Assembly: GCF_004959855.1 (NCBI RefSeq)
Contig: NZ_SPNT01000021.1
Span: forward strand, 1 to 35,284
Direction: 5' to 3'
Length of the DNA stretch: 35,284 nucleotides
Source of the DNA: Nitratireductor sp. XY-223
GTDB lineage: Bacteria; Pseudomonadota; Alphaproteobacteria; Rhizobiales; Rhizobiaceae
A program made the translations under genes and the position numbers. Below the pieces are notes generated by a model. That model searched no databases. It had not been told where the DNA came from and saw nothing but the letters and a program-made list of their open reading frames with translations. Below, in pieces: positions 63 to 20,728 of this stretch; positions within the stretch are counted from its first letter, which is position 1; each line of letters starts with the position of its first letter.

Positions 63-272
63 CTAATCATGAAACCGCAACGCTGCCCGTTCCTTTTTCA
101 ACAGAGAACGGGACATCCCCTCGGCGCCGGAACGGGTGAACTCGTCGGTGTGGCAAAGACCGGTTGCCTTGATCTCGACAAGTACCTCGCCCCTTCGCGG
201 ACCTTCCAGGTTCACCTCCATGATTTCGAGTGGTTGGCCGGCTTCGACGGCAACGGCTGCTCTGGTGCGCAT
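63..272 (-). pseudogene. frmA: Truncated S-(hydroxymethyl)glutathione dehydrogenase (class III ADH), N-terminal remnant
   Basis: The first 50 residues are a canonical class III alcohol dehydrogenase start: MRTRAAVAVEAGQPLEIMEV, then EVLVEIKATGLCHTDEF with the catalytic-zinc Cys of GLCHTD, then SGA. The family continues with DPEG and the GHEGAG zinc motif. Here the frame passes through EGM into unrelated sequence and stops at residue 69 of roughly 370, so nucleotide-binding and most zinc-binding parts are absent. The start keeps an AAGGA ribosome site about 8 bases upstream. The intact enzyme oxidises the formaldehyde-glutathione adduct, which suits its place after a putative formaldehyde-releasing N-demethylase operon on the same strand. 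The break lies near 115-125. An assembly error is possible. Confidence 0.75.
86..112. terminator. Hairpin with 7-bp arms beside the broken frmA end
   Basis: CCCGTTC at 86-92 pairs exactly with GAACGGG at 106-112 around a 13-nt loop containing five Ts. No T-tract follows on either side, so this is a weak terminator candidate. It sits exactly where the frmA-like reading frame loses similarity to its family, and may have arrived with the foreign end. Confidence 0.3.
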
Positions 273-300
273 GGGAGTATCCTTCAGACTGTTATTGGAA

Positions 301-347
301 ACAGCACCCGGCAGAGGAGTTTGCTGGTTGGATCTGCCGGGTGCTGT
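301..347 (-). terminator. Perfect 15-bp inverted repeat, probable terminator after the oxygenase operon
   Basis: ACAGCACCCGGCAGA at 301-315 is exactly complementary to 333-347, with a 17-nt loop. It lies between the GST stop codon (376) and the frmA remnant start (272). On the minus strand the stem is followed by a short run (TTTCC), so rho-independent termination of the oxygenase operon is plausible though the T-tract is poor. The stem could also act in the other direction. Confidence 0.5.
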
Positions 348-375
348 GGTCGCTGACCAACGTCTTGATCAGCTG

Positions 376-1044
376 TTACGATGCCAGTTTGCTGTCTTCA
401 TCCGCGGCGGGTCCGGCCGGGAATACACCGGACATCACCGTAAAGCCCGGAATGCGCTTGAAACGGTCGCACCAGCGGCGGATAGCGGGATAGTCCATGC
501 GGGATATTCCGCCCTCCTCGGACAGGATGATGTAGGGGAAACAGGCGATGTCGGCGATCGTCGGGTGATCGCCCGGACATATCCAGTCCTGTCCGGCCTC
601 CTCTGCAAAGAAAAGGTGCTCATCGAGGATGCGGAACAGGCGATGGGCACCGGCTCGGCAGGCGCCAACATCGATGTGGGTGTAGAACAGCGCGTCATGC
701 AAACGCGCCGCCGAGGCGGTGGCCGTGATTGCGTCGGCAAAGGCAAGCCACTGGGAAACCTGGCCGAGCAGATCGGGATTGTCCCGCGGATACCACTTGC
801 CCGACCCGTCGTATTTCGAAGCAAGATAGACGAGGATTGCCTGCGCGTCCCTGAGGACGAGACCGTCATCGTCGATGACGGGCAACTGCCCGAGCGGGTT
901 GATTTTCCGGAACGCTTCCGATTTGTGCCGATTGCCGGGATAGAAGTCGACGAGTTCCGACTCGTATTCCACGCCGAGAAAGGACATCAGCAGGCGCAGC
1001 TTGTAGCAGTTACCCGAAAGTTCGTAGTCGTAAAGTCTGATCAT
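376..1044 (-). CDS. Glutathione S-transferase-like protein (NdmE-like)
   Basis: A 222-residue protein with an N-terminal thioredoxin-fold GST domain (about residues 1-80: MIRLYDYELSGNCYKLRLLM, later NPLGQLPVIDDDG) and an all-helical C-terminal domain ending in a DHPTIADIACFPY segment typical of GSTs. The start at 1044 is chosen because it has GAGG about 8 bases upstream and begins 8 bases after the reductase stop; longer frames run back inside the reductase gene. Last gene of a four-gene minus-strand operon. In Pseudomonas putida CBB5 a GST-like protein, NdmE, binds NdmC and NdmD in the 7-methylxanthine N-demethylase complex. The operon context makes that structural role the best guess here, over detoxification. 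Family is secure; role is inferred. Confidence 0.85.
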   Translation of the reverse strand: MIRLYDYELSGNCYKLRLLMSFLGVEYESELVDFYPGNRHKSEAFRKINPLGQLPVIDDDGLVLRDAQAILVYLASKYDGSGKWYPRDNPDLLGQVSQWLAFADAITATASAARLHDALFYTHIDVGACRAGAHRLFRILDEHLFFAEEAGQDWICPGDHPTIADIACFPYIILSEEGGISRMDYPAIRRWCDRFKRIPGFTVMSGVFPAGPAADEDSKLAS

Positions 1045-1052
1045 GGCGGACC

Positions 1053-2777
1053 TCAGATATCCAGGATGAGCCGATCGGATGCGGCACGCGAAACGCAGGT
1101 CATGATGGACTTGCCTTCCGCTTTTTCTTTGGGGCTCAGATAAACGTCCTGATGCAGGATTTCGCCCTCGATGACGCCACAGCGGCAGGTTCCGCACGCG
1201 CCCTGTTCGCAGGAACTCGACATGTTGATGCCGGCCTCGCGCAGCACGTCCAGAATTGTCTTGCCAGACGGCACCGTCAGGGTCATCGCCGAGCGCGCAA
1301 GATCGATCTCGAAGCTGGAGCTGTCGTCGCGTTCCGTCGTGTTCTTGAAGTATTCGAAATGGATGGCTTCGTCGGCCCAGCCGGCATCGGCGGCGATCTG
1401 CCGTGTCGCCTCGAGCATCGGGCCGGGACCGCAGATATAGACATGGCGGGCACGACCCGGGGACTTGAGGACATCGCGCAAGGTGTCGCCCGTCTCGCCG
1501 GGCGAGAGCCCTTCGTGAATGGTCACCGCATCGCCCATTTCGCCGAAGGCTTGATTGAAGGCGACGTGGGCTCCGGACTGAACGAAATAGTGGAACTCGA
1601 ACCCCAGTCCCTGGCTGTTCAGCGTGCGTGCCATGGACAGCAGTGGCGTCACGCCGATGCCGCCCGCGACGAAAACCGTGTGGGTGGCGTCACGGCGAAG
1701 CGGAAAATTGTTGCGCGGCGCCGAAATCGCCAGGACATCGCCCTTGGCGACGCCGTCATGGATGGCGACCGATCCGCCTCTGCTGTCCGGCTCGCGCTTG
1801 ACGCCGATCGTGTAGTGATCGGTCTCGCCGGGACCATTGGTCAACGAGTACTGGCGCACCAGGCCGTTCTGCAGGTGCACATCGATATGGGCGCCCGGCT
1901 GGAAGGTGGGCAACGGCCCCTTCAACGCCTCCAGCCGCAGGCTGACAATGCCCTCGGCCGTCATCGCCTTCTCGGTCACCTGGACGCGAAGCTCGGCCTG
2001 CCGGCCGTCTTCGCTGGCCGGCGGGATATCGACCAGGTCCTCGGACACTTTGGCAATGGTCACGACCATCGGCTCGGGTGTCTCCATTGAGGCGGCTGCG
2101 GCTTCGATGCGACTGCGCAACTCCTCCAGCAACCAGTTATGGTGCTTCAGTATCGCTACACGTTCGGCACCCTCCGAAGCCTGGTCGAGCAGGCCGCGAA
2201 TGACCGAGTGATTGCTGTCGCACGGTTGGACGAAAAGGCGCACAGAAGGGCCGCCGGCCGCGGTAACGATCACCGAGCCGTCCGCCTCCTCACGGCTGGT
2301 ACAGCCTTCGGCGAAAACGTAGTGCCGCAATTCCTGGGCGACCAGTTCCCGTGGCGCATTGACGGGTACGGGCCGCAGGACAGTAACCTCATCAAAACCC
2401 TCCATGTCCGGAAGTTCACCGGATGCCGTCTCGCCGGCCCAGACAAGGCCATGCACTTCCTGCGTTGGATAGCGGTGGTTGCAGATCGTGCGGGCCGGCG
2501 CATCGGCCGGATGGGCGGGGATGTAGGTGCAGCCGGCCGTGCGGTTGGCGTATCGCCAGCCGTGATACTGGCACTTCAGCTCCTTGCCGTCATTGATCCC
2601 GATCGAAAGGCGCACCCCCCGGTGCAGGCAGCGGTTCTCCCAAACATTGACGTAGCCGTCATCGGCGCGCCAGACGGCAAATTCGCGTCCCAGGAGCTTT
2701 GCCTGATATACATGGCGTTTCGGCAGGTCCGAGCTCGATGCGATCGGATACCAATGGCTGTGCATGTCGGTGGTCAT
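1053..2777 (-). CDS. Rieske / FMN-NAD(P)H reductase / plant-type ferredoxin fusion (NdmD-like)
   Basis: 574 residues with three redox modules. A Rieske domain carries C50-x-H52-x16-C69-x2-H72. A phthalate dioxygenase reductase/VanB-type flavin and NAD domain follows at about 260-480 (RQYSLT at 308-313, AGGIGVTP at 371-378, CGPGPM at 449-454). A C-terminal plant-type [2Fe-2S] ferredoxin has C523, C528, C531 and C561. Ordinary VanB-type reductases are about 320 residues and lack a Rieske centre; the extra N-terminal Rieske domain is the hallmark of NdmD of Pseudomonas putida CBB5. It should pass electrons from NAD(P)H through FMN, ferredoxin and its own Rieske cluster to the Rieske-less oxygenase subunits encoded 24 bases upstream. 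Residues 130-225 look like part of an oxygenase catalytic domain without iron ligands. AGGA lies 8 bases before the start. Confidence 0.85.
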   Translation of the reverse strand: MTTDMHSHWYPIASSSDLPKRHVYQAKLLGREFAVWRADDGYVNVWENRCLHRGVRLSIGINDGKELKCQYHGWRYANRTAGCTYIPAHPADAPARTICNHRYPTQEVHGLVWAGETASGELPDMEGFDEVTVLRPVPVNAPRELVAQELRHYVFAEGCTSREEADGSVIVTAAGGPSVRLFVQPCDSNHSVIRGLLDQASEGAERVAILKHHNWLLEELRSRIEAAAASMETPEPMVVTIAKVSEDLVDIPPASEDGRQAELRVQVTEKAMTAEGIVSLRLEALKGPLPTFQPGAHIDVHLQNGLVRQYSLTNGPGETDHYTIGVKREPDSRGGSVAIHDGVAKGDVLAISAPRNNFPLRRDATHTVFVAGGIGVTPLLSMARTLNSQGLGFEFHYFVQSGAHVAFNQAFGEMGDAVTIHEGLSPGETGDTLRDVLKSPGRARHVYICGPGPMLEATRQIAADAGWADEAIHFEYFKNTTERDDSSSFEIDLARSAMTLTVPSGKTILDVLREAGINMSSSCEQGACGTCRCGVIEGEILHQDVYLSPKEKAEGKSIMTCVSRAASDRLILDI

Positions 2778-2801
2778 CTGATTTTCCTGTCGAATTCCGG
2801 G

Positions 2802-3698
2802 TCACGCCGCTGCCGGGATCACACCGTAGGTAATCCCTTTCTTTGTCAGCCACCTGCGGTAAGCGATGGCGGATTTATCGGCGCGAATGGGTGTCTCGGC
2901 ACGCGGATCCAGCGGAAGGCGCTTGGGATACTGGTTTTCCAGGATCGGCTTGTCCTGGCCGAAAATCGTTTGCTGGAACAGGCGGATGGCGGTGTCTTCG
3001 CTCGTTTCGTCAAGCAGTGTCAGCATCATGTGCGCCCGCACATGCTCCTGATCGACCGGCTGCACGAAGACGGCGATGACATCAAAGCGGCTCTCGTCCA
3101 GCGGACTGGATTTGTAAAGAACCGAACAATAGGGATGCGGGACCCTGTAGATATAGTCGACATCGGTGCCGCCGCTGGAGGCGGCCGCCGCCATCGGCTG
3201 AAAGAACTTGCAGTTCGTCGCGACGATCTCGTCGCGCTCCTCGGAAATCTCGACCTCGTATTCCCTGACCTCCGTATGCGGCTCGGCCCCGAGAATGTCG
3301 GTATGCACATAGGGAAAGTGCCCCATATCGAGGAAATTCTCGATCGCCCTCGGCGCCGAAACGTTGACGCCGAACGTGGCGGCGTGGATGTTCCGCCGGT
3401 CCTTCTCGCCATATTCAGGGATCGGAAAAAGGTCCGGGGGCGGCGTGCCGAATGAGGTCCAGACATATCCATAGCGCTCCAGCACCGGCAGGTGGTCGGC
3501 CGGGTCGGCCGGCAGCTCCGGTTCCGTCCGCGCGGGATAGGTCCAGACGACAGGGTCCCCGGTTTCGCTTCTGGTGAACGCGACTGGATCTTCCAGCAGC
3601 ACCGTCGTTGAAATGGCACCGTCAACCGCTTCGTCGGCGGATGCGATCGCGTGCCACAGATCCAGTACGACCGGGTCCTTGCAGGTGAAACGAGACAA
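2802..3698 (-). CDS. Rieske-type oxygenase catalytic subunit without Rieske cluster, paralogue 1 (NdmC-like)
   Basis: 298 residues from a TTG start at 3698, preceded by GGGAGG with 7-base spacing; the longer frame to 3758 would run into the upstream gene and has no better site. It has the mononuclear non-haem iron motif of Rieske oxygenase alpha subunits, E120-N-x2-D124-x2-H127-x4-H132, and a QDKPILENQ segment where D249 is the probable third ligand. No CxH...CxxH Rieske motif is present: the N-terminus goes from an LDLWHAIA-like segment directly to the YGYVWTSFGTP strand that normally follows the Rieske domain. Known family logic: NdmC takes electrons from the Rieske domain of NdmD. Predicted oxidative demethylase or hydroxylase; substrate unproven. 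Only about 26 bases separate it from paralogue 2. Confidence 0.8.
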   Translation of the reverse strand: MSRFTCKDPVVLDLWHAIASADEAVDGAISTTVLLEDPVAFTRSETGDPVVWTYPARTEPELPADPADHLPVLERYGYVWTSFGTPPPDLFPIPEYGEKDRRNIHAATFGVNVSAPRAIENFLDMGHFPYVHTDILGAEPHTEVREYEVEISEERDEIVATNCKFFQPMAAAASSGGTDVDYIYRVPHPYCSVLYKSSPLDESRFDVIAVFVQPVDQEHVRAHMMLTLLDETSEDTAIRLFQQTIFGQDKPILENQYPKRLPLDPRAETPIRADKSAIAYRRWLTKKGITYGVIPAAA

Positions 3699-3724
3699 GC
3701 TTTTTCCTCCCGTGAAGTTTTGTG

Positions 3725-4576
3725 CTAGGCGGCGGGAATGGCGCCGTAGCTGACGCAATGGTCACGAAGCCATCTGCGGTAAAGGATTGCGACTTTGTCG
3801 GCGCGGATCGGCGTCTCGGCGCGCGGATCCAGAGGCAGCCGCTTCGGCAGCTGGTTTTCCAGGATCGGTTTGTCCTGCGCGAATATCAACTGCATGAACC
3901 AGCGGATATCCGGCTCGTTCATGCCCTCCTTCAGATAACACAGCATGTTGTGAACGACGCAGTCTTCCGGCCCGACCGGCTGAATGAACAGGACGATGTA
4001 GTCCTTGCGGTCCGGATAGGCCGGGTTGGTCTTGTAGAGCGACACGATATAGGGGCGATATACGCGGTACTTGTACTCGACCTCGATGCCGCCCTCCGCC
4101 GTTGGCGATGCTACCGGCTGATAGAAATAGCATTCGGTCGCGATGATCTCGTCGTCCGGCGTCAACTCGACCTGATAGGGCGCGACTTCCGTATGCGGCT
4201 CCTCGCCAAGCCAGCCGGTGTGCACGAAGGGAAAATGCCCCATATCGAGAAAGTTCTCGACAACCCGAAGTCCGGACGCCCTTACCGGGAACGAACCGCC
4301 GCTTACGACATAGCGATCCGCCTCGCCCGCTTCGGGGATCTCGATGATGTCGCGCGACGGGGTGCCGACGCAAACCCATACGAACCCGTATTTGATCTGA
4401 CTGGGCAGGACACGACCCGTTTCCTTGTGCCTGACCTCGGCGCTTCCGTCTGCGCGCAGGTTGATATCGAGTTGCTGTTCAAAGAGTTCGGCAGATTGGC
4501 GGCTATGTTGCCTGAGGTGTTCCAGGTCTGCCACCACATGCCAGTCATCGAGAAGAATCCGGTCGTGGCACGTCAT
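3725..4576 (-). CDS. Rieske-type oxygenase catalytic subunit without Rieske cluster, paralogue 2 (NdmC-like)
   Basis: 283 residues, first gene of the operon, with AGGGGAT about 8 bases before the ATG. The iron-binding motif is E107-N-x2-D111-x2-H114-x4-H119, with D235 in QDKPILENQ as the likely third ligand. The N-terminus (LLDDWHVVADLEHL, then IKYGFVWVCVGTP at about 61-73) matches the rim of a Rieske oxygenase whose cluster-binding loops are deleted. It is a clear paralogue of the next gene: the C-terminal segments share KRLPLDPRAETPIRAD exactly, while the region after residue 120, which helps form the substrate pocket in this family, differs more. Both subunits presumably use the one Rieske-reductase fusion. 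N-demethylation releasing formaldehyde is the favoured reaction by NdmC homology; other N- or O-methyl substrates remain possible. Confidence 0.8.
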   Translation of the reverse strand: MTCHDRILLDDWHVVADLEHLRQHSRQSAELFEQQLDINLRADGSAEVRHKETGRVLPSQIKYGFVWVCVGTPSRDIIEIPEAGEADRYVVSGGSFPVRASGLRVVENFLDMGHFPFVHTGWLGEEPHTEVAPYQVELTPDDEIIATECYFYQPVASPTAEGGIEVEYKYRVYRPYIVSLYKTNPAYPDRKDYIVLFIQPVGPEDCVVHNMLCYLKEGMNEPDIRWFMQLIFAQDKPILENQLPKRLPLDPRAETPIRADKVAILYRRWLRDHCVSYGAIPAA

Positions 4577-4602
4577 AGTGTGATCCCCTGTTATTTATAT
4601 GC

Positions 4603-4632
4603 GTTATGCATTTTTGTTTTTATGGTAGGCAA
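4603..4632 (-). promoter_or_regulatory. Possible sigma70-type promoter for the oxygenase operon
   Basis: Read on the minus strand, TTGCCT (plus 4627-4632) and CATAAC (plus 4603-4608) are separated by 18 bases in an AT-rich gap between divergent genes. The -10 matches the consensus at only 4 of 6 positions. The candidate operator lies just upstream of the -35. Confidence 0.3.
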
Positions 4633-4640
4633 AATGGGAA

Positions 4641-4657
4641 AGATTGCATACCAATCT
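4641..4657. promoter_or_regulatory. 17-bp palindrome, candidate GntR operator
   Basis: AGATTG-CATAC-CAATCT has perfect 6-bp arms and a 5-base spacer. It sits in the 228-bp divergent region between the oxygenase operon (starts 4576) and the GntR gene (starts 4805). Position and symmetry suit a dimeric GntR/FCD repressor controlling both directions. A second short palindrome, GAAAGACTTTC, lies at 4664-4674. Confidence 0.45.
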
Positions 4658-4804
4658 CAAAAGGAAAGACTTTCAATTTTTCCTTGATAGTTATTTGCCG
4701 GTGGTCGCGTTAGTTTTTTGGTGCGGGATTGCGGGATGCGCAATACCGGCAGTTTTTGGGGCTCGTACCCTTAAGAGATATGATCAGAAGGTAGTACCAT
4801 TGCG

Positions 4805-5512
4805 ATGGGTAACCGTTCGGATGAGATATCCAAGGTAATCACCAGAGCCATCATCAATCGAAGGCTGACGCCCGGCTGCAAGCTGAGCGAGCAGGCGCTT
4901 GCGGATGTGTTCAACGTGAGCCGGGCCGTCGTCAGGCAGGCGCTGATCCGCCTCGCCGATGACGGGCTTGTCACCGTGGAACGGCACCGCGGCGCTTTCG
5001 TATCGCGGCCGAGCCACCGCGAGGCCATGGAAATCTACGACGCGCTGACCATGCTGGAACAGGGCGTCGCTGCACAGCTCTCGGGACGCCTCGACCAGCG
5101 GGGGTGGAGCGAGTTGCGGCATCACGTGGAGCTGCAGCACAAGGCGGTCGAAGAAGGCAATGACGAACTGGCGGATCAGCTCGGCTCGCATTTTCACGTC
5201 ATCCTGGTGAAGCTGTCCCGCAACACCGTGGTTCAGGAAATGCATGCGCAGCTGATACGGCGCACGGCGCTGTTGAGGTCGCTGGTGGACAGCCGCTTCG
5301 ACTATTGCGGCCTGCTGCACGACCATTCCGAAATCATCGACCTGCTGGAGGCGGGGCGGGTCGCCAAGGCGCAGGAGCTGATCGACACCCACCATCGCAA
5401 TGTCGTCAAGGGCTACCTGATGGGCGAGAACACCGAGCAATCGATGAGTGTTCATGAAGCCCTGGAGCCTTACGTCAACGATGCGAAAACCCCGGTGAAT
5501 GCAACAAGCTGA
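4805..5512 (+). CDS. GntR-family transcriptional regulator, FadR/FCD subfamily
   Basis: 235 residues. The N-terminal winged helix-turn-helix spans about residues 8-70 (KLSEQALADVFNVSRAVVRQ, then ALIRLADDGLVTVERHRGAFV). An all-helical FCD effector domain follows at about 78-215, with histidines in GSHFHVIL and the HHRNVV segment that commonly bind metal and ligand in this subfamily. It faces the oxygenase operon and is followed 82 bases later by the BMP transporter operon, so it probably senses the imported substrate or a demethylated product and controls both. The ribosome site is weak (only AGAAGG some 13 bases upstream), which suggests low expression. A 12-bp palindrome, CGCGAAATCGCG, lies at 5522-5533 just after it. 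Confidence 0.88.
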   Translation: MGNRSDEISKVITRAIINRRLTPGCKLSEQALADVFNVSRAVVRQALIRLADDGLVTVERHRGAFVSRPSHREAMEIYDALTMLEQGVAAQLSGRLDQRGWSELRHHVELQHKAVEEGNDELADQLGSHFHVILVKLSRNTVVQEMHAQLIRRTALLRSLVDSRFDYCGLLHDHSEIIDLLEAGRVAKAQELIDTHHRNVVKGYLMGENTEQSMSVHEALEPYVNDAKTPVNATS

Positions 5513-5594
5513 GGAGGACCACGCGAAATCGCGCACCGCACCCGACAAGGGAGCCAACAAACAAGAAAAACGCGAAACATGAGGGAGAGAGACA

Positions 5595-6689
5595 ATGAAA
5601 CGCGTAACCAGAAGAGATGTGCTGAAATACGGCTCGGCAGCGGGTCTGGCGGCCGGACTGTCCGGTCTGCCGTCCATCGGACAAGCCGCGGATGTATTGA
5701 AAGTCGGAGCGGTCTACGTATCGCCAGTCTCCGAGATCGGATGGACCAAACAGCACAGTCTCGGCATCGAAGCCATCCAGGAGGAATTCGGCGACAATGT
5801 CGAGGTAACCGTCATCGACAACATATTCCGCCCCCAGGATGCCGAACGCGTCTTTCGCGAACTGGCCGCCTCGGGCAATCACCTGATTTTCGGGACCAGC
5901 TTCTCGCACGGAACCCCGATGCAGAAAGTCGCGCCGCGCTTCCCCAAGGTGGCTTTCGAGCACTGTTCCGGCATCAAGCATCTGAAAAACCTCGGCACCT
6001 TCGAGGCCAAGTATTTTGAAGGCTGCTATGTGGCCGGCGTGCTCGCTGGCCATGTGTCGAAGTCCGCCAAGATCGGATTCATCGGCGGGTTCCCGATACC
6101 CGACATCGTCGGACCGGCAAACGCGCTGCTGCGCGGTGCGCAGAGCGTTAACCCGGACACCACCTGCAACGTCATCTTCCTGAACTCCTGGTTCGATCCG
6201 GGCAAGGAGAAGGAGGCGGCCAAGACGCTGGTCTCGCAGGGTTGCGATGTGATCTGCTCCATGACCGACACGGCCACCGGCGTCCAGGTCGCCGGCGAGA
6301 ACGATGTCTGGTCGGTGGGCTATGCCAGCGACATGGCGAACTTCGGCAATGGCAAGCATCTGACCGCCTTCACCCTGAACTGGGCGCCGGTCTACGTTCA
6401 GGCCGCCAAGGATGTCGCCGCCGGCACCTGGCAATCCACGGAACGCTGGCAGGGACTGTCGGACGGCGTCGTTCGCATGTCGCCTTTCAACGCGGATCTG
6501 CCGGGCGAAGCCGTCAGCGCCGCGCAAAAGGCGCAGGACGAGATCATCGCCGGAACGCTGCACCCATTCGCGGGCGAGCTGAAGGATCAGGGCGGCGGTG
6601 TGAGGGTCGAAGCGGGCGGCGTCCTGTCGGATGGCGACATTCGCAGCTTTGACTGGTTCGTTGAAGGTGTGATCGGCAACCTCGGTTAG
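5595..6689 (+). CDS. BMP-family ABC transporter substrate-binding protein, Tat-exported
   Basis: 364 residues. The N-terminus carries a twin-arginine signal (TRRDVLKYGSAAGLAAGLSG, about residues 4-23) with likely cleavage after GQA near residue 31, so the protein is folded in the cytoplasm and exported to the periplasm. The mature part matches the basic membrane protein (BMP/PnrA) family: VYVSPVSEIGWTKQH near the start, FEAKYFEGCYVAGVLAG and KIGFIGGFPIPDI in the middle, and a MTDTATGVQVA segment. Characterised BMP proteins bind purine nucleosides, and relatives serve purine or riboside ABC importers. With the downstream ATPase and two permeases it forms a complete importer. Its link to the adjacent N-demethylase-type operon suggests an N-methylpurine or related heterocycle as cargo (inference). 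GGGAGAGAGA precedes the ATG. Confidence 0.9.
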   Translation: MKRVTRRDVLKYGSAAGLAAGLSGLPSIGQAADVLKVGAVYVSPVSEIGWTKQHSLGIEAIQEEFGDNVEVTVIDNIFRPQDAERVFRELAASGNHLIFGTSFSHGTPMQKVAPRFPKVAFEHCSGIKHLKNLGTFEAKYFEGCYVAGVLAGHVSKSAKIGFIGGFPIPDIVGPANALLRGAQSVNPDTTCNVIFLNSWFDPGKEKEAAKTLVSQGCDVICSMTDTATGVQVAGENDVWSVGYASDMANFGNGKHLTAFTLNWAPVYVQAAKDVAAGTWQSTERWQGLSDGVVRMSPFNADLPGEAVSAAQKAQDEIIAGTLHPFAGELKDQGGGVRVEAGGVLSDGDIRSFDWFVEGVIGNLG

Positions 6690-6766
6690 TTCCGCAAGAT
6701 CACGCAATTCGCCCGGGCCGGCAAGTCCGGCTCGGGCGGCACCGTCCAGACAAAGGCAACCGCGCT

Positions 6767-8314
6767 ATGACTCCACGCCTGCAACTTCGTGGCATCAGCA
6801 AGTCGTACCCAGGCGTTCTTGCAAATGATGATATCTCGCTCTCCGTACTGCCCGGCGAAATCCACGCCGTTCTGGGTGAGAACGGAGCCGGCAAAAGCAC
6901 GCTGATGAAGATCATCTACGGAGCCACTCCGGCTGACGGCGGCCAGATTCTGTGTGACGGCCGGGAGGTGCCCGAACACGGACCCGCCGTCTCACGGGAA
7001 CTGGGCATCGAAATGGTCTATCAGCACTTCGCGCTGTTCGAATCCATCACGGTCGTCGAGAACATCGCACTGTCGATGCCGGGCCGCATGGACCTGAAGG
7101 GCCTTGCCGTGAAGGTGCGGGAGGTTTCCGAGAAATACGGGCTTCCCATTGACCCGGACCGGCTGGTCCTATCCCTGTCCGTCGGCGAACGCCAAAGGGT
7201 GGAGATCGTGCGCTGCCTCCTGCGCCAGCCCAAGTTGCTCATCCTCGATGAGCCCACATCGGTCCTGACGCCGCAGGCCGTCCGCAAATTGTTCGAAACG
7301 CTGCGCAAACTCTCCGACGAGGGATGCAGCATTCTCTACATAAGCCACAAACTGGACGAGGTGCGCGAGCTGTGTCATTCGGCGACCGTGCTGCGCGGCG
7401 GCAGGGTGACCGGTGAAACGGATCCACGCACCACCACCTCCGCGGACCTGGCGCGCATGATGGTCGGCAGCGACCTGCCTGAAATGCTGCTCCAGCCATC
7501 CGAGTTGAGCACCGCGCCGCTTCTCAGCGTCGACAACCTCAACATGGCCTCCGAAAGCCATGTGGGCACCAGTTTGACGTCCATCAGGCTTGAAGCCTAT
7601 GGCGGAGAAATCGTGGGTATCGCTGGTGTGTCCGGCAACGGTCAGGGTGAGCTGGCCGCCGCAATCAGCGGCGAGCGCATTGCCAGCGCTGCCGAGGACA
7701 TTGTCCTGGAGGGCCGTCCGGTCGGTCATCTGGACGCCGGCCGCAGGCGCGACCTGGGCCTTGGTTTCGTTCCCGAGGAGCGGCTCGGACGCGGTGCCGT
7801 CCCTCCGTACGAATTGTCCGAGAACGCGCTGTTGACGGCGCATCGCAAGGGCATGGTGAAACACGGCATGGCGGACCGCAACAAGGCCCGGGATTTCACC
7901 ATGCAGGTCATCGACAAGTACAGCGTCAAGGCCCATGGCCCCGACGCCAAGGCACACGGCCTGTCTGGCGGCAATCTTCAGAAATTCATCATGGGACGCG
8001 AGATCGAGCTCTCGCCCAAGGTGCTGCTGGTATCGCAACCCACCTGGGGGGTCGACGTCGGCGCCGCGGCATATGTTCGCCAGACCCTCATCGACCTCAG
8101 CCGCAGCGGCCGGGCCGTCATCGTCATTTCCGAGGAGCTTGAGGAGTTGTTCGAGATCTGCGACCGGCTCTACGTCATCAGCAATGGCGCGCTGTCGCAA
8201 TCGCTCAACCGCTCCGAGACCAATGTCGAGGAGATCGGGCTGCTTATGGCCGCGACCGGTTCGAGGGATCAGGACGCCGAACAGCGCGCGGAGGATATGA
8301 AATATGCTGTTTAA
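6767..8314 (+). CDS. Sugar/nucleoside-type ABC transporter ATPase (two fused ATPase domains)
   Basis: 515 residues with two nucleotide-binding domains in tandem, as in RbsA/MglA and in the ATPases of BMP systems. First domain: Walker A GENGAGKST at 37-45, signature LSVGE at 137-141, Walker B LLILDEP at 157-163. Second domain: a degenerate P-loop GVSGNGQGE at 287-295, signature LSGGN at 399-403 and an atypical Walker B LLVSQP at 420-425 in which the usual Asp-Glu is replaced by Ser-Gln. A degenerate second site is normal for this family, so the gene is not considered defective. It follows the binding-protein gene by 77 bases and overlaps the first permease gene by 11 bases. Confidence 0.93.
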   Translation: MTPRLQLRGISKSYPGVLANDDISLSVLPGEIHAVLGENGAGKSTLMKIIYGATPADGGQILCDGREVPEHGPAVSRELGIEMVYQHFALFESITVVENIALSMPGRMDLKGLAVKVREVSEKYGLPIDPDRLVLSLSVGERQRVEIVRCLLRQPKLLILDEPTSVLTPQAVRKLFETLRKLSDEGCSILYISHKLDEVRELCHSATVLRGGRVTGETDPRTTTSADLARMMVGSDLPEMLLQPSELSTAPLLSVDNLNMASESHVGTSLTSIRLEAYGGEIVGIAGVSGNGQGELAAAISGERIASAAEDIVLEGRPVGHLDAGRRRDLGLGFVPEERLGRGAVPPYELSENALLTAHRKGMVKHGMADRNKARDFTMQVIDKYSVKAHGPDAKAHGLSGGNLQKFIMGREIELSPKVLLVSQPTWGVDVGAAAYVRQTLIDLSRSGRAVIVISEELEELFEICDRLYVISNGALSQSLNRSETNVEEIGLLMAATGSRDQDAEQRAEDMKYAV

Positions 8315-9374
8315 AGTGGAGGCCCGCCAGGAACCCTCGCGCAAGATGGCTCTCGCGGCACCGCTGATTGCGACCGGCCTGACCGTCGTCATCAGCTCCC
8401 TTTTCTTTCTGTCGCTCGGTCTCAATCCGTTCGTGACGCTCTATACGTTCTTCGTCCAGCCGCTGACGACGATGAACGGCATTTCAGAATGGCTGCTCAA
8501 GGCTTCGCCGCTGATACTGATCGCCTGCGGCCTTGCGGTCGCCTTCAGGGCGAATGTCTGGAACATCGGGGCAGAGGGCCAACTGATCATGGGCGCGATC
8601 GCCGCGGCCGGTGTCGGTCTGTTCTCGCCGTTCCAGGAAAGCATCTTCCTTCTGCCGCTCATGGTGGTCTGCGGCATGCTTGCCGGCGCCGCCTGGGCCG
8701 CTATCCCGGCGTTCCTCAAGGCCAGGATGAACACCAACGAGATCCTGGTGACGCTCATGCTGACCTATGTGGCGACGCTGATCCTGTCCTATCTGGTGCA
8801 CGGCCCCTGGCGCGATCCCGACGGCTTCAACTTCCCGCAGACGGCGCTGCTTCCCTATGCCGGCATGTTCGAGGTCTTTGATTATTCATACCGCCTCAAC
8901 ACCTCGATATTCTTTACCGTTGTCGCCGTAATTCTGGCCTGGCTGTTCATGGAGCGCAGCTTCCTCGGCTACAAGATGGCTGTTGGTGGCGTGGCGCCGG
9001 CAGCGGCGCGTTTTGCGGGCTTCAAGAGTTCGTCCTCGATCTGGGTCGGATTGCTGGTATCGGGTGCGACCGCGGGCCTGGCCGGCATGACCGAAGTATC
9101 CGGACCGCTCGGGCAATTGTCGTCGCAGATTTCCCCCGGATACGGCTTCGCGGCGATTATCGTCGCCTTCATCGGCCGGCTGAATGCCTTCGGCATCGTC
9201 CTTGGCGGACTGCTTCTGTCGCTACTCTACCTGGGCGGCGAAACCGTGCAATTGTCCCTCGGCCTGCCGTCCTCCATCGCGCTCATCTTCCAGGGAATGC
9301 TGCTGTTCTTCCTGCTGGCCAGCAACTTCCTGATCAACTTCCGCATTCGCGCAATTGCAGTGAGGGCCCACTGA
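8304..9374 (+). CDS. ABC transporter permease, BPD_transp_2 family (BMP system, first permease)
   Basis: 356 residues, strongly hydrophobic with about nine or ten membrane segments. The segment FRANVWNIGAEGQLIMGA (about residues 82-99) and the NTNEILVTLMLTY segment are typical of the YufP/NupB-type permeases paired with BMP binding proteins. It overlaps the ATPase gene by 11 bases and the second permease by one base (TGATG), indicating a single coupled operon. It forms half of the heterodimeric channel in the inner membrane. Confidence 0.92.
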   Translation: MLFKVEARQEPSRKMALAAPLIATGLTVVISSLFFLSLGLNPFVTLYTFFVQPLTTMNGISEWLLKASPLILIACGLAVAFRANVWNIGAEGQLIMGAIAAAGVGLFSPFQESIFLLPLMVVCGMLAGAAWAAIPAFLKARMNTNEILVTLMLTYVATLILSYLVHGPWRDPDGFNFPQTALLPYAGMFEVFDYSYRLNTSIFFTVVAVILAWLFMERSFLGYKMAVGGVAPAAARFAGFKSSSSIWVGLLVSGATAGLAGMTEVSGPLGQLSSQISPGYGFAAIIVAFIGRLNAFGIVLGGLLLSLLYLGGETVQLSLGLPSSIALIFQGMLLFFLLASNFLINFRIRAIAVRAH

Positions 9375-10294
9375 TGGAGCTGTTTATCTCGATCTTCGTG
9401 GCGACGATTGTTGCGGCGACGCCTCTCGTTTTTGCCGCCCTTGGCGAACTTGTCGTTGAAAAATCAGGCGTCCTGAACCTCGGCATCGAGGGGATGATGC
9501 TGGTCGGCGCAGCATTTGGAGTCTGGGCGCATTTCGCCGGGCTTTCGATGCCTGTTGCCCTGTTGACCGCCGTGCTGTCCGGTGCTGTGGTGTCCTTGCT
9601 GTTCGGCGTGCTGGCGCTGACTTTCATGACCAATCAGTATGCGGCCGGGCTGGCGCTGGCTATTTTCGGCACCGGCGTGTCGGCCTTTGTCGGCCGCGGT
9701 TTCGGCAGCACACCGGTGGAGGCGATCCAGCCGCTGCATTTTCCGGTGCTCTCGGACATTCCGGTGATCGGACCGATGCTCTTCCAGTTCGATCCGCTCG
9801 TCTATTTCTCCTTCGTCATGTTCGCGCTGGTCACTTGGTTCCTGTACAGGACGAAGGCCGGCCTTGCCCTGCGCGCCATCGGTGAAAGCCCGGACTCCGC
9901 CCACGCCATCGGATATCCGGTCATCAAGATACGCTATCTGGCCGTGATGTTCGGCGGCGCCATGGCCGGTCTCGGCGGTGCCTATCTGTCGCTGGTCTAC
10001 ACGCCGCTGTGGGTGGAGAACATGACGGCCGGGCGCGGCTGGATATCGCTTGCGCTGGTGGTTTTCGCCGCCTGGCGGCCGCTGCGCGTCATGATCGGCG
10101 CCTGGTTGTTCGGCGGCATGACCATATTGCAGCTGCAAGGCCAGGCAATGGGCGTGTCGGTCCCGTCCGAGGTCCTGTCCGCTCTACCCTATCTCGCCAC
10201 CATCGTGGTTCTCGTGCTGATTTCGCAAAACCGCAAGGCCATGGCTCTGGATTTTCCGGTTTCCCTCGCCCAGCCGTTTCGACCGCGCGGGTGA
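9374..10294 (+). CDS. ABC transporter permease, BPD_transp_2 family (BMP system, second permease)
   Basis: 306 residues, about eight to ten hydrophobic segments. EKSGVLNLGIEGMMLVGAA at about 33-51 and the AIGESPDSAHAIGYPV loop are characteristic of YufQ/NupC-type permeases of BMP importers. Its start overlaps the preceding stop by one base. It is the last gene of the importer operon; a short GC-rich palindrome follows directly. The operon carries no enzyme gene, so metabolism of the cargo must be encoded elsewhere, most simply by the divergent oxygenase operon. Confidence 0.92.
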   Translation: MELFISIFVATIVAATPLVFAALGELVVEKSGVLNLGIEGMMLVGAAFGVWAHFAGLSMPVALLTAVLSGAVVSLLFGVLALTFMTNQYAAGLALAIFGTGVSAFVGRGFGSTPVEAIQPLHFPVLSDIPVIGPMLFQFDPLVYFSFVMFALVTWFLYRTKAGLALRAIGESPDSAHAIGYPVIKIRYLAVMFGGAMAGLGGAYLSLVYTPLWVENMTAGRGWISLALVVFAAWRPLRVMIGAWLFGGMTILQLQGQAMGVSVPSEVLSALPYLATIVVLVLISQNRKAMALDFPVSLAQPFRPRG

Positions 10295-10474: not shown

Positions 10475-11623
10475 ATGATCAACAACAGCTCAGGCGTTCG
10501 AATGCTCAAAGGCATGACATGGGACCACCCGCGCGGATACACAGGCCTCGAAGCCGCCTCCGCGCGCTATGAAAAGGAACACGGCATTTCCATCTCATGG
10601 GATCGCCGCAGCCTGCAGGCCTTCGCCGATGCCTCCATTTCGAAGCTGGCGGATGACTACGATCTGATTGTCCTTGATCATCCGCATGTCGGCCAGATAG
10701 CTGACTCGGCGTGCCTGCATGCGCTGCCGTTTCCGGATGACGCGGACCAGTGTTCGCTCGGCGGCAGTCTCGAAAGCTATGTCTGGCGAGAAAAACTCTG
10801 GGCCTATCCCGTCGACGCCGCTTGCCAGATGGCGGTCAAACGCCCGGATCTGTGCCGCGTCGTATTGCCCGACTGGGAGGCCACCCTCAATGCCGGGCCG
10901 AAGGACTACCGGTTGGTCACCGCCCTCCTGCCCGTCGATTCATGCTGCATGTTCATGACGCTGGCCGCCGGACAGGGCGAAGAGGACCTGCCCTATTCGG
11001 AAGACGCCTTTGCATCGAAAGACTGTGGGACGCTGGCCCTCAAGGTGCTCAAGGCGCTGTACAGGCTCGGCCCCTCGGAAGCCGTGTCCTGGAATCCGAT
11101 CAAGGTCCTGGAGGCGATGGCGGCGACCGACGAATTTGCCTATTCGCCCTGTCTCTTCGGCTATATCAACTATGCCCGGCCCGGCTTTAAGCCCAACCGG
11201 CTCGAATACACCGATCTGCCGAGCTTCAGGGGAAGCTCCGTGAAGAGAGGCATCCTCGGCGGCGCCGGCATCGGTGTGTCGGCAAAGACTACCGAATTGG
11301 ACCGGGCCGTCGATTTCGCCCGCTGGATCACTTCCGAGGCCGTCCAGTCGGGAATCTATCTCGAAAACGAAGGCCAGCCGGCGCATTTGCAGACGTGGCG
11401 CAAAAAGGGTTCTGATCCCGATTACGCCGGCTTTCTTTCCGGCGGCCTGCACACGATGGAAAATGCCTGGACCCGTCCGCGCGATGTCTGGTTCCTCGGG
11501 TTCATTGACGATCTCTGCGAGGTCTTCCCGGATTTCTTCATCAAGGATCTGGATGAATCCGCATTCCTGGAAACCATCAACAAACTCTATCGCCACCATC
11601 GGGCCCGGGGGGAAGAACAATGA
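10475..11623 (+). CDS. Solute-binding-protein-fold protein without signal peptide
   Basis: 382 residues (373 if the ATG at 10502 is used, which has AGG about 8 bases upstream). It resembles extracellular solute-binding proteins of the COG1653/SBP_bac_1 type: a start MLKGMTWDHPRGYTGLEAAS, then YDLIVLDHPHVGQIAD, PVDAACQMA and GGAGIGVSAKT segments and helical C-terminal repeats. No signal peptide, Tat motif or lipobox is present, and no permease or ATPase gene belongs to this operon. It therefore probably acts in the cytoplasm, as a ligand-binding partner or an enzyme built on the periplasmic-binding-protein fold. It overlaps the SDR gene by four bases (ATGA). Fold family is fairly secure; function is unknown. 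Confidence 0.7.
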   Translation: MINNSSGVRMLKGMTWDHPRGYTGLEAASARYEKEHGISISWDRRSLQAFADASISKLADDYDLIVLDHPHVGQIADSACLHALPFPDDADQCSLGGSLESYVWREKLWAYPVDAACQMAVKRPDLCRVVLPDWEATLNAGPKDYRLVTALLPVDSCCMFMTLAAGQGEEDLPYSEDAFASKDCGTLALKVLKALYRLGPSEAVSWNPIKVLEAMAATDEFAYSPCLFGYINYARPGFKPNRLEYTDLPSFRGSSVKRGILGGAGIGVSAKTTELDRAVDFARWITSEAVQSGIYLENEGQPAHLQTWRKKGSDPDYAGFLSGGLHTMENAWTRPRDVWFLGFIDDLCEVFPDFFIKDLDESAFLETINKLYRHHRARGEEQ

Positions 11624-12336
11624 AGACGGCAATCGTCACCGGCGGCAACAAGGGTCTTGGCCTCGCCCAGACGAAGAAGTTCCTCGACGAAGGCCTCCGC
11701 GTTTATGTGGTCTCGCGAAGCGAGGGCGAAATTGCAACGCTCGAGGGAGATGTTGTCTTTCATCCGCACGATCTCAGCGACTGGAGAGATGTGGGTTATC
11801 TCGACCGGATTTCATCGGAGGCCGGCGGTATCGACATACTCGTGAACAATGCCGGCGCCCACCTCAAGAAGCCTGCATGGGACGTGAAGGGCGACGAACT
11901 GGAAACGGTGCTGGACCTGAACGTCAAGGCCATGTTCGCCGCCTGCGGACGCTATGTCGAACTGCAGAAGGAGAAAGGCGGGGCAATCGTCAATATCTCG
12001 TCCATGGGCGGGCTTTTGGCCCTGCCCTCGGCGGCCGCCTACGTCACCGCCAAGACGGCGGTCATCGGCCTGACCCGGTCGATCGCCGTCGATGCCGCCC
12101 CCTACGGCATACGGTGCAATGCGGTCGCGCCGGGCTTTATCGACACCGACATGACCCGCGCGATCCTCGAGAAGGACCCGGCAAGGCGCGCCAAGATCGA
12201 AGGGCGCATCCCGGGCGGCAAGTTCGGACTACCCGAAGACGTCGCCAACGCCGTCTATTTTCTGTCGTCCGGCCAGGCCGCGCATGTAAGCGGCGTCGTT
12301 CTGCCCGTCGACGGCGGGTTTTCCGTCGGGTTCTGA
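11620..12336 (+). CDS. Short-chain dehydrogenase/reductase (FabG-like)
   Basis: 238 residues, a classical SDR: cofactor loop TGGNKGLG at 7-14, NNAG at 76-79, and the catalytic S128, Y141 and K145 (AAAYVTAK). The C-terminus GGKFGLPEDVANAVYFLSS with VLPVDGGF is standard for FabG-type oxidoreductases. It overlaps the preceding gene by four bases and ends four bases before the MDR dehydrogenase. An SDR of gluconate-5-dehydrogenase type next to an L-idonate-5-dehydrogenase-like enzyme would suit two-step epimerisation of a sugar acid through a ketone, but SDR sequences do not predict substrates well. Confidence 0.88.
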   Translation: MKTAIVTGGNKGLGLAQTKKFLDEGLRVYVVSRSEGEIATLEGDVVFHPHDLSDWRDVGYLDRISSEAGGIDILVNNAGAHLKKPAWDVKGDELETVLDLNVKAMFAACGRYVELQKEKGGAIVNISSMGGLLALPSAAAYVTAKTAVIGLTRSIAVDAAPYGIRCNAVAPGFIDTDMTRAILEKDPARRAKIEGRIPGGKFGLPEDVANAVYFLSSGQAAHVSGVVLPVDGGFSVGF

Positions 12337-12339
12337 GCA

Positions 12340-13368
12340 ATGGGCTATACCCGATCCCTCCTCACAGCCGCCCGGTCGATCGCCATTGAAGAGGCCGACC
12401 TGCCTGGCGAGATAGCCCCGGATCACATGCGTCTGCGCCTCGCCACGGCCAGTATCTGCGGTACGGACATGCATTATTTCCGCCACTTCGCCAATGCCGG
12501 CTTCACGCTCGATTATCCGGTGACGCTCGGCCACGAGGCCTGCGCCTATGTGGAGGATGCGAACGGTCACGGGTTTGCGGCGGGCGCACTGGTCGCCATC
12601 AATCCGGTGATCGAATGCGGGACATGTGAAAAGTGCCGCAGCGGCGACATCAACATGTGCCCGGACAAACGGTTTCCGGGCTCCGCCACCACCAAGCCGC
12701 ATATTGACGGCTTCTTTCGGAACTATTTCGATTTTCCGGCCCGGTGCTGCCGAACCGTGTCCAAAGGGGTCGATCCGGATCACCTGACTTTCGCCGAGCC
12801 TCTGGCTTGCGCCATGCACTGCGTCAACCGCGCCGGCGTCGACCGGCAAACGAAAGTACTGGTGACCGGTTGCGGGCCGATGGGCCTCCTTGCGGTCGTC
12901 GGCTGCAGGGCCAGGGGCGCACAGATCCACGTGACCGACCTCAAACAGGGTGCCATCGACGCCGCGCGCGCCGTCGGCGCAAGCAAGGGATATGTTATCG
13001 GCCGGGACGATCTCACAGAACTGTCAAACCGTTATGACGTGGTGATCGAGGCCAGCGGTTCGCCGCACGGCTACAACCAGGCGCTGGACGCCGCGCGTAA
13101 ACAGGGGGTCGTTGCCGTGCTGTCGCTGATCCAGCCGACCGACGTGCCGATCAATCTGCACCTCAACGCGCTCAAGGAAATCACCTCGACCGGCTCAATT
13201 CTGTTCACCCGCGAGTTCGACGACGCGGTTGACCTGATTGAATCGGGAGATGTCGATTTCGACAGCCTTGTCGCCGGCCGGTTCGGCGTAGCGGAGACGC
13301 TCGCCGCTTGCGAATTGATGGCCTCCGGGGAGGCCGTGGGCAAGGTTCTGATCAAGCCGTCCGCGTGA
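12340..13368 (+). CDS. Zinc-dependent MDR dehydrogenase, L-idonate 5-dehydrogenase-like
   Basis: 342 residues. Catalytic zinc ligands are in ICGTDMH (C40) and LGHEA (H65, E66); the structural zinc lobe is C93-x2-C96-x2-C99-x7-C107. The Rossmann motif TGCGPMGLLAV follows at about 169-179. A segment FPGSATTKPHIDGFF resembles the region of E. coli IdnD that reads FFGSAMYFPHVDGGF, and FAEPLACAMH matches FAEPLAVAIH. It should oxidise a secondary alcohol of a polyol or sugar acid with NAD(P). It is the third gene of the operator-1 operon and converges on the acyl-CoA operon with only four bases between stop codons. Confidence 0.83.
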   Translation: MGYTRSLLTAARSIAIEEADLPGEIAPDHMRLRLATASICGTDMHYFRHFANAGFTLDYPVTLGHEACAYVEDANGHGFAAGALVAINPVIECGTCEKCRSGDINMCPDKRFPGSATTKPHIDGFFRNYFDFPARCCRTVSKGVDPDHLTFAEPLACAMHCVNRAGVDRQTKVLVTGCGPMGLLAVVGCRARGAQIHVTDLKQGAIDAARAVGASKGYVIGRDDLTELSNRYDVVIEASGSPHGYNQALDAARKQGVVAVLSLIQPTDVPINLHLNALKEITSTGSILFTREFDDAVDLIESGDVDFDSLVAGRFGVAETLAACELMASGEAVGKVLIKPSA

Positions 13369-13372
13369 TGTT

Positions 13373-15281: not shown

Positions 15282-15291
15282 TGTTTCTCCT

Positions 15292-16086
15292 TCAACGCCC
15301 TTTGAATTCCGGATCGCGTTTTTCCAGAAAGGCAGCGATGCCCTCCTTGCCGTCCTGCGTGGCGAAAAGCCCGCCAAGCACGCGCTGTTCGAAAGTCAGC
15401 CCCGCGGAAAGCGCGGTGTCGAGACCATCATCGATTACGCGTTTGCCCTCCGCCAGGGCAATCGGTGCCTGGGCTGCCAGCGTCTCGGCGAGTACGAGGG
15501 CACGGCCCATCAGTTCGTCCGGCGCGCAGCATTCGAGCGCGGCGCCGTAGTCAACCGCCTCCTGCGCCGTGATCATGCGGCCGGTGAGCAGCATCTCCTT
15601 GGCCCGCATCGGCCCTACAAGACGCGGCAGGCGCTGGGTTCCGCCACCGCCGGGCAAGAGGCCGAGCTTGATTTCCGGCAGTCCCAATTTCGTCTTCTCG
15701 TTGACGAGGATGAAGTCGCAGCACATCGCCAGTTCGAATCCCCCGCCCAGCGCATAGCCGTTGACCGCGCAGATGGTGATCTGCGGCAATGCCGCTATGG
15801 CGTCGAATGTCTGGCGCGAGCGGCGCTGGAAATCATCGAACACAGTCTGCCCGACACCATGATATCCGGCAATGTCGGCGCCGGCGACGAAGCCGCGCCC
15901 CGTTCCGGTGACAACGAGCGCCCGGACAGCCTCCTTCCGGGCGGCGAGGTCTGTAGCAAACGCACCGATTGCCTCCATGATCTCAAAATTCAGTGCGCCG
16001 AGAGACTCTTCCCGGTCTATGCGCAACACCTCGACGGCGCCCCTGCGTTCAAGCGCCAGATGAGGATGCAGACGTTCCTCGGCCAT
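15292..16086 (-). CDS. Enoyl-CoA hydratase/isomerase (crotonase family)
   Basis: 264 residues, typical crotonase length. Oxyanion-hole segments [11 protein letters not shown] and GYALGGGFE are present, and both catalytic glutamates of a hydratase are in place: E118 in [11 protein letters not shown] and E138 in [16 protein letters not shown]. It should add water to an enoyl-CoA formed from the substrate activated by the CoA-transferase. Its ATG overlaps the CoA-transferase stop by one base (TAATG), and the hydrolase gene follows after 10 bases. Confidence 0.92.
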
Positions 16087-19697: not shown

Positions 19698-19710
19698 ACG
19701 GACGGGAACG

Positions 19711-20715: not shown

Positions 20716-20728
20716 ACATTCCTCCCAA

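Follow-up and report, generated by a model that had tools for sequence, protein, structure and literature searches.

Which compound does a bacterium take up and alter with a locus that joins a split Rieske oxygenase to its own ABC importer? We addressed this question in Nitratireductor sp. XY-223, in a window that is one whole contig of 35,284 bases (NZ_SPNT01000021.1, here C13). The window encodes two Rieske-less mononuclear-iron subunits (catA and catB), a Rieske-reductase-ferredoxin fusion, and a glutathione S-transferase (GST)-like protein, which are transcribed away from a GntR-type regulator and a BMP-type importer. We propose, with a probability of roughly 65%, that this module takes up an N-methylated purine base and strips it of its N-methyl groups. 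As substrate we favor, as a best guess, a methylated aminopurine, for instance a methylguanine.

A split oxygenase operon divergent from a complete importer

An earlier note, made from the sequence alone, had described one operon of GST-like, fusion, and Rieske-less genes divergent from GntR and a complete BMP importer. Every part that it named was identified by Pfam, signal, and PDB matches (window 121–10294), and these parts lie within 376–10294 as it stated, but the operon extends further, to a fragment of frmA that runs from 272 to about 121. Transcription on the minus strand proceeds through catA, catB, the fusion gene, the GST-like gene, and the frmA fragment, with gaps of 26, 24, 8, and 103 bases. 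The divergent plus-strand genes encode the GntR protein, a BMP-family binding protein with a twin-arginine translocation (Tat) signal, an ABC ATPase, and two permeases. The features are the following:

1–120, no strand: end of an insertion element, repeated, with 10 further copies in the genome (at least 118 of 120 bases at 100% identity)
121–272, minus strand: N-terminal fragment of FrmA (glutathione-dependent formaldehyde dehydrogenase), ~50 codons; FrmA-family identity and TIGR02818 match
376–1044, minus strand: GST-like (NdmE-like) protein, 222 amino acids; Pfam GST_N and GST_C_2
1053–2777, minus strand: NdmD-like fusion of Rieske, reductase, and [2Fe-2S] ferredoxin parts, 574 amino acids; Pfam Rieske, Fer2, and NAD_binding_1
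2802–3698, minus strand: catB, Rieske-less mononuclear-iron catalytic subunit; VanA_C, iron ligands kept
3725–4576, minus strand: catA, second Rieske-less catalytic subunit, 283 amino acids; VanA_C, iron ligands kept
4642–4656, no strand: palindrome GATTG-N5-CAATC, probable GntR operator; single match in the window
4805–5512, plus strand: GntR/FCD-type regulator; Pfam GntR and FCD, 62% identical to the S. meliloti counterpart
5595–6689, plus strand: BMP-family binding protein, AtzT-like, predicted to be Tat-exported; Pfam Bmp and TAT signal
6767–8314, plus strand: ABC ATPase of the importer; Pfam ABC_tran in two stretches
8304–9374, plus strand: ABC permease 1; Pfam BPD_transp_2
9374–10294, plus strand: ABC permease 2; Pfam BPD_transp_2

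The best start of the GST-like gene is the ATG at 1044, the open reading frame (ORF) listed from 1197 being overlong, and catB starts with TTG, with GGGAGG upstream. In addition to VanA_C, catB gave a weak match to KshA_C that covers the same part.

The loci used for comparison (L numbers) include 80 from genome contigs, which are the best 80 of at least 516 confirmed relatives; L029 was left out as a near copy of L030. Counts per clade refer to the 141 catalytic rows that remained after removal of 10 rows at ≥98% identity; one genome is counted twice in each of the pairs L039/L130, L041/L094, and L044/L131, and each neighbor family took its name from one or two representatives. The same gene order is found in Sinorhizobium, Mesorhizobium, Aminobacter, Labrys, and Nitratireductor, and because the identical order is present in other genomes, the arrangement is more than chance. 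The order BMP–GntR/catA–catB–fusion–GST is plain in 13 of the 24 loci with catA, and five more have one gene extra or uncalled; the window carries the mirror image. One of the 13 plain-order loci is that of S. meliloti pSymA, whose nine proteins are 57–79% identical to those of the window.

Catalytic subunits with an iron site and no Rieske domain

Pfam matched the VanA_C domain in catA and catB, and not the Rieske domain. In the alignment of the 141 rows, the bridging Asp and the two His and Asp ligands of the iron are kept in all 128 split catalytic proteins, catA and catB included. The Rieske motif CxH..CxxH is present in none of these 128 proteins and in 13 of 13 intact relatives. By sequence, the closest solved structures to the catalytic chains are SxtT/GxtA, followed by NdmA/NdmB. 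The alignment of catA with SxtT is weak over residues 1–33 and good over 109–333; since the match skips the stretch between them, catA lacks the middle of the Rieske domain, which is its cluster-bearing part. The N-terminus of the fusion aligns with SxtT residues 10–119. As catA and the fusion thus cover complementary parts of SxtT, the comparison suggests that the split system arose from an intact ancestor that was copied, the copies then losing complementary parts. In the tree, a long branch adjoining the split group as a whole leads to an intact enzyme with Rieske and catalytic domains, which is encoded beside a BMP importer in L053 (9879–10886) and is a possible pre-split form.

Two further arrangements were seen among the relatives. 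In a second split architecture (L035, L041–L044, L073, and others), a free-standing Rieske protein and a GST accompany a BMP importer, deaminase-family genes, and a Rieske-less catalytic subunit. Rieske-domain relatives without CxH..CxxH adjoin an aberrant catalytic paralogue in L033 (8763), L113 (6761), and L126 (6598) and are possibly cluster-free or degenerate partners.

The predicted model of catA is confident, with a predicted local distance difference test (pLDDT) score of 92.4. Its nearest solved fold is that of SxtT/GxtA (template modeling (TM) score 0.81–0.88 by query), and NdmA/NdmB come second by E-value (TM 0.71–0.75). The O-demethylases GdmA (TM 0.77–0.78) and dicamba monooxygenase (0.65–0.75) rank below NdmA/NdmB by E-value at comparable TM scores. 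The modeled fold places catA among the Rieske oxygenases and does not fix its reaction.

Relation to NdmCDE

Passages of a review (PMC4408171) describe NdmCDE as a Rieske-less catalytic subunit, a reductase fusion that carries the Rieske domain, and a GST-like partner, which together act on 7-methylxanthine by N7-demethylation. The likeness to this system that the earlier note had proposed is borne out in the window by the Rieske-less subunits, the Rieske domain on the reductase-ferredoxin fusion, and the GST-like protein. The fusion matches phthalate dioxygenase reductase (2pia, 9e-63) and the ferredoxin domain of NdmD (6icm_D, 4e-19). For NdmC we took L063, from Paraburkholderia caffeinitolerans, as a stand-in for the protein of strain CBB5; of the intact enzymes in L063, one matches NdmB at 688.6 bits and the other NdmA at 649.2 bits. 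The match to the NdmD ferredoxin domain is 135.1 bits for the L063 fusion versus 71.9 bits for that of the window. The GST-like protein is 79% identical to its S. meliloti and 63% to its P. caffeinitolerans counterpart (54–63% over the GSTs of L032 and L063), and catA and catB are 45–46% identical to the NdmC-type proteins of L063 and L032.

The catalytic subunits were placed with a quick tree that was rooted on the intact rows and contains some long branches (support values are from the Shimodaira–Hasegawa-like approximate likelihood ratio test, SH-aLRT). The NdmC-type clade has 16 rows, including the L063 protein (SH-aLRT 98), and catA and catB fall outside it, in clades of 24 rows (100) and 41 rows (99), respectively, that are sisters of each other (82). 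Because they group outside the NdmC-type clade, the enzymes of the window look built like NdmC yet are not its orthologues; the expectation that they would be NdmC-type was not upheld, and catA and catB form a separate clade.

Two catalytic subunits that differ at a specificity position

catA is present in 24 loci, always with catB, and catB occurs without catA in 14 loci, a number that includes L038, where ORF selection merged the second catalytic gene so that the locus was counted as catB only. At 18 positions, each at ≥95%, the catA rows differ from the catB rows with which they are paired, and one of these positions is the specificity position known from NdmA and NdmB. The PDB entries 6icp and 6icq, titled NdmA QL mutant, differ from NdmA at one Asn and one Phe, which we take to be N282 and F286 of the NdmA numbering. 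Two active-site mutations are stated to suffice for switching NdmA from N1- to N3-demethylation, in the part consulted of a study of coffee-borer isolates (PMC8055839). At the position of this Asn, NdmB has Gln, catA has Met (23 of 24 rows), catB has Gln (38 of 41, His in the remaining three), and the NdmC-type proteins have Gln (16 of 16). Given Met versus Gln at this position, catA and catB are likely to have two different specificities. NdmA/NdmB, listed as an alpha3 alpha'3 assembly in a table of PMC12445004, would be a precedent by analogy for a mixed catA–catB hexamer.

Alternatively, catA could be a structural partner of catB and not an enzyme with its own target, as it is only ever found with catB (24/24 loci) and catB is also found alone. 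We consider this improbable, since no catA row has lost an iron ligand or the bridging Asp and the 18 positions that separate the paired sets include the specificity position. In L031, L108, and L134, a diverged BMP importer is preceded by a third catalytic paralogue, whose residues at the two specificity positions are His and Leu.

The importer is tied to the oxygenase operon

A BMP gene lies within 10 kb in 27 of the 38 loci of the window's clade, 7 of the 16 NdmC-type loci, where it is often a lone binding protein with no ATPase or permeases in the map, and 30 of the 45 remaining loci. For any purine-type transporter the counts are 28/38, 15/16, and 31/45, and the NCS2 nucleobase symporter is found in 10 of the 16 NdmC-type loci versus 1 of the 38 of the window's clade. 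In a control with 13 genomes, a BMP gene lay within 10 kb of 13 of 13 split Rieske genes and of 3 of 75 other Rieske-family matches. These genomes were picked for a split system with BMP nearby (the positive genomes G065, G081, G083, and G097 being left out), so that the 13/13 figure is biased upwards and the counts over 38, 16, and 45 loci are fairer. In L031, L108, L134, and L115, a BMP importer lies ahead of the same operon in the same direction, and its binding protein is only 22–25% identical to that of the window; because this protein is so diverged and the operon is the same, the importer looks to have been replaced.

Shared 9-mers in the gap between the two arms led to the palindrome GATTG-N5-CAATC. 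It has one match in the window, where shuffled sequences gave a mean of 0.07 and one match in 7 of 100 shuffles. In 2.08 Mb of loci we found 23 matches versus ~0.9 expected from base composition, a count that is descriptive because the pattern was picked after viewing the data and the loci are partly close kin. Twenty of the 23 matches lie in the gap ahead of the catalytic gene, and 19 of the 22 loci with a divergent GntR–catalytic pair have the palindrome in this gap, the exceptions being L039, L130, and L110. Since it is conserved, the palindrome is likely the operator bound by the GntR protein. Synteny and this common palindrome tie the importer to the oxygenase operon, in line with the earlier note. 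Two other candidates were discarded: GntR sites of the form T-N-GT...AC-N-A, which occur in the gap of a minority of the 22 loci at scattered positions, and a 16-base consensus that was found with ≤5 mismatches in 18 of the 22 loci and missed the site of the window. In L110 (16546), a further copy of GATTG-N5-CAATC lies close to a second ABC importer, 77 bp from its ATPase gene.

A binding protein with a purine-type fold

The nearest solved relatives of the BMP protein are AtzT (6pi5, 5.8e-91) and 3s99, which was modeled with adenine. AtzT was purified with guanine (dissociation constant ~110 nM) and also bound adenine, ammeline, and 2-hydroxyatrazine, according to the sections consulted of its description (PMC6834077). 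The model of the window protein fits AtzT with a TM score of 0.96 by target length and 0.88 by query, and fits the nucleoside-binding PnrA proteins less well. The protein thus belongs to a purine-binding group, as the earlier note had it, but its nearest relatives hold purine bases and not nucleosides.

The fold, the aromatic clamp, and the positions of Ser97 and Phe98 are shared with AtzT and 3s99. At contact positions 45/97/98/139/165/169/194/218/220, the window protein has W S F C D P W M D versus Y S F T E N W N N in AtzT, that is, Tyr45 is changed to Trp, Thr139 to Cys, Glu165 to Asp, Asn169 to Pro, Asn218 to Met, and Asn220 to Asp. Except at position 139, this pattern is common to all 23 rows that are ≥60% identical to the window protein (itself included, one genome twice). 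The shorter Asp at 165 and the Met at 218 could make room for a methyl group.

Formaldehyde genes behind the operon

Oxidative N-demethylation releases formaldehyde, and so does O-demethylation. Genes for formaldehyde detoxification fit the demethylation that had been proposed for this locus. In the window, the frmA fragment begins 103 bp past the GST stop and ends at ~121 in the repeated element that forms the contig end. It is 57–75% identical over 63–67 amino acids to FrmA-family proteins in 18 other loci, and in 14 of these the gene lies 0–105 bp behind GST. The TIGR02818 match is at C13:84–266, and profile positions 47–368 are matched on contig C14, at the end of which the remainder of an FrmA-type protein stands beside sequence shared with the end of the element; the two parts are presumably halves of one frmA gene. 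At least six of the ten other genome copies of the element end lie at or within 1–2 bases of a contig end. We conclude that the insertion element broke the operon's own frmA in this strain.

Within the window's clade, frmA lies within 10 kb in 11 of 38 loci, and frmA and/or frmB in 12 of 38. In all 11, frmA is directly behind GST, at 43–105 bp in nine and overlapping through an overlong ORF start in two. FrmA and FrmB of L102, the single locus tested, pass the curated cut-offs of TIGR02818 and TIGR02821. The frm genes have the same place behind GST in L063, which has NdmA and NdmB orthologues, and frmA and frmB are named in the legend of the CBB5 gene map in the review (PMC4408171, as excerpted).

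Purine deaminases and the choice of substrate

Proteins that group with guanine-, 8-oxoguanine-, or adenine-deaminase-like representatives are encoded beside the module in other branches, and L038, L039/L130, L078, L095, and L097 have such neighbors within the window's own clade. Among the representatives scanned, two from L090 pass, one for guanine deaminase (411.2 versus a cut-off of 375.4) and one for 8-oxoguanine deaminase (603.9 versus 532); in L072, the guanine deaminase profile PRK09228 was passed (476.5 versus 351) and TIGR02967 was just missed (373.6 versus 375.4). A guanine deaminase and the small subunit of xanthine dehydrogenase score above cut-off on contig C44 of the Nitratireductor genome itself. 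The guanine- and adenine-deaminase-family neighbors in some relatives make an aminopurine substrate more likely than xanthine. Hence, the N-demethylation of a methylpurine, one form of what the earlier note had proposed, is supported, but its naming of methylxanthines in particular is not.

We rejected a transthyretin/5-hydroxyisourate hydrolase-like protein (26880–27491, minus strand) as evidence for a urate pathway, as it scores 46 versus an NCBIfam cut-off of 87.45 and lies ~17 kb away. Its gene adjoins those of a thiamine pyrophosphate enzyme and an FMN-dependent hydroxy-acid dehydrogenase.

Proposed mechanism and alternatives

From the gene content, the domain split, the metal ligands, the conserved synteny, palindrome, and neighbors, and the purine-type fold of the binding protein, we infer the reaction, substrate, complex, and regulation as follows. 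The AtzT-like protein, exported by the Tat route, would bind the base in the periplasm for uptake by the ABC transporter. Within the cytoplasm, NAD(P)H would supply electrons that travel via the reductase and ferredoxin domains of the fusion to reach its Rieske cluster. This cluster would dock on the Rieske-less subunits, and the GST-like protein may stabilize the complex, a role postulated for NdmE. catA and catB, with different position or substrate specificity, probably form an assembly like the NdmA/NdmB hexamer without Rieske domains of their own. Each would hydroxylate an N-methyl group so that formaldehyde leaves, to be cleared by FrmA/FrmB, and the freed base, of the guanine, adenine, or xanthine type, would enter purine breakdown. 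The GntR protein would govern both arms through the palindrome between them.

Several observations weigh against this proposal. Only 5 of the 38 clade loci have a neighbor of the aminopurine-deaminase families, and both the adenine-deaminase-like protein of L117 (348.5 versus 472.5) and the amidohydrolase of L035 (366.6 versus 532) score under cut-off. No purine-type transporter lies within 10 kb in 10 of the 38 loci; two of these are on short contigs and five, of a Devosia type, have nearly full flanks. A seven-locus Rhizobium group likewise has no purine-type transporter. In 26 of the 38 loci there is no frm gene within 10 kb, and in the window the operon's own frmA is broken, with a second FrmA encoded on C2 (610.9 bits). 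The binding pocket departs from that of AtzT at several contacts, so that a purine ligand is likely and not certain. The nearest solved relatives of the catalytic subunits are SxtT/GxtA, ahead of NdmA/NdmB. Among solved structures, the sequence comparison did not show the grouping with another oxygenase clade (quaternary-amine or aromatic O-demethylases, for example) that the earlier note had named as a refutation. By fold, however, NdmA (TM 0.72–0.75) is no closer to the catA model than GdmA (0.77–0.78) or one chain of dicamba monooxygenase (0.75), so that fold cannot separate N- from O-demethylation.

Among the alternatives, a methylxanthine demethylase, with catA and catB each removing a different methyl group from plant methylxanthines (caffeine, theobromine, 7-methylxanthine), is unlikely. 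It shares its architecture with NdmCDE, for which the review gives 7-methylxanthine as the substrate (PMC4408171, in part), and frmA is placed as in the P. caffeinitolerans locus. However, the module of the window contains no intact NdmA- or NdmB-like enzyme, catA and catB form a clade of their own, the NCS2 symporter is common in NdmC-type loci and found only once in the window's clade, and the deaminase-family neighbors of some relatives suggest aminopurines. We consider it quite improbable that the system acts on some other N-methyl, N-alkyl, or O-methyl compound, be it an s-triazine or a pyridine like trigonelline. The s-triazine-related ligands of AtzT (PMC6834077, in the sections consulted), the pocket positions 165 and 218 that are unlike AtzT, the orthologues on the symbiotic megaplasmid of S. 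meliloti, and the nearness of O-demethylases by fold could be accommodated in this way, but many members of the split family have purine-deaminase-family genes or NCS2 or BMP transporters beside them. Literature listings on trigonelline and on S. meliloti transporters showed no functional record for this locus. Hydroxylation or oxidation of a purine or related N-heterocycle on the ring, with no demethylation, is very improbable: the nearest solved relatives, SxtT/GxtA, hydroxylate, and purine oxidation by Rieske enzymes is known, as with HpxDE, but frmA/frmB behind the operon in a third of the clade loci and the frmA fragment of the window are hard to explain without formaldehyde.

Returning to the import and N-demethylation of a methylated purine base, we can extend this proposal only tentatively, to a version that we think more likely to fail than to hold. 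Here, a mixed catA–catB hexamer without Rieske domains, with two site specificities and one kind of Rieske cluster supplied in trans from the reductase, would serve in the salvage of methylated RNA or DNA bases (e.g., methylguanines or dimethylguanine) from soil and plant roots, and NdmCDE would be an offshoot of this widespread family of nucleobase salvage. To our knowledge, few descriptions exist of what becomes of RNA-derived methylated nucleobases in bacteria. If the proposal is true, a complete route of import and demethylation can be named in rhizobia and their relatives, and a natural two-site Rieske-less oxygenase becomes available for the study of in-trans electron delivery. It would also give a testable function to ndmCDE homologues that the review, in its consulted passages, calls of unknown function (PMC4408171).

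Flanking genes

Downstream of the importer, the window encodes an SBP_bac_8 solute-binding-like protein with no export signal obvious by eye (10475–11623, plus strand), followed by short-chain dehydrogenase/reductase (SDR) and alcohol dehydrogenase genes. We left the genes at 10475–17276 out of the module, as only the SDR belongs to a recurrent cluster (7 loci, at varied distances). At 18756–25302, genes for a formylglycine-generating-enzyme-like protein and a sulfatase surround apparent tripartite tricarboxylate transporter genes (by eye), and this region is a probable sulfate-ester catabolic cluster.

Comparison with known systems

Homologues of ndmCDE in Sinorhizobium and Mesorhizobium are in print already, a point that the earlier note had missed. 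As cited in passages of the review (PMC4408171), Summers et al. (2013) listed homologues of the ndmCDE cluster, with unknown function, in 18 further organisms, many of them Sinorhizobium or Mesorhizobium. Those of Sinorhizobium and Mesorhizobium are very likely the loci described here or their kin, with the difference that these passages are silent on an importer, an operator, a link to frm, and a pair of catalytic subunits. Scattered ndm homologues of coffee-borer isolates were noted to have ABC transporters, permeases, and GntR regulators around them; the text consulted (PMC8055839) does not assign these transporters to the BMP type, and outside strains with the full ndmABCDE set only ndmAD, in two Erwinia, are clustered. 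In the open-access literature we found no paper that pairs a split Rieske system with a BMP importer or 7-methylguanine, or that names the substrate. As far as this search goes, the paired catalytic subunits, the BMP linkage, the operator, and the formaldehyde link in this clade are new.

The nearest solved fold to the catalytic subunit is that of SxtT/GxtA, which are intact enzymes with a Rieske domain and belong to another pathway. NdmA and NdmB of P. putida CBB5 resemble catA and catB as two catalytic subunits that differ at the specificity position, but each of them has its own Rieske domain, whereas catA and catB have none. NdmCDE of the same strain shares the architecture, and the order of catalytic subunit, fusion, and GST is that of the L063 and L032 loci. 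The window differs from NdmCDE in having two catalytic subunits, a BMP importer of its own, and a divergent GntR gene.

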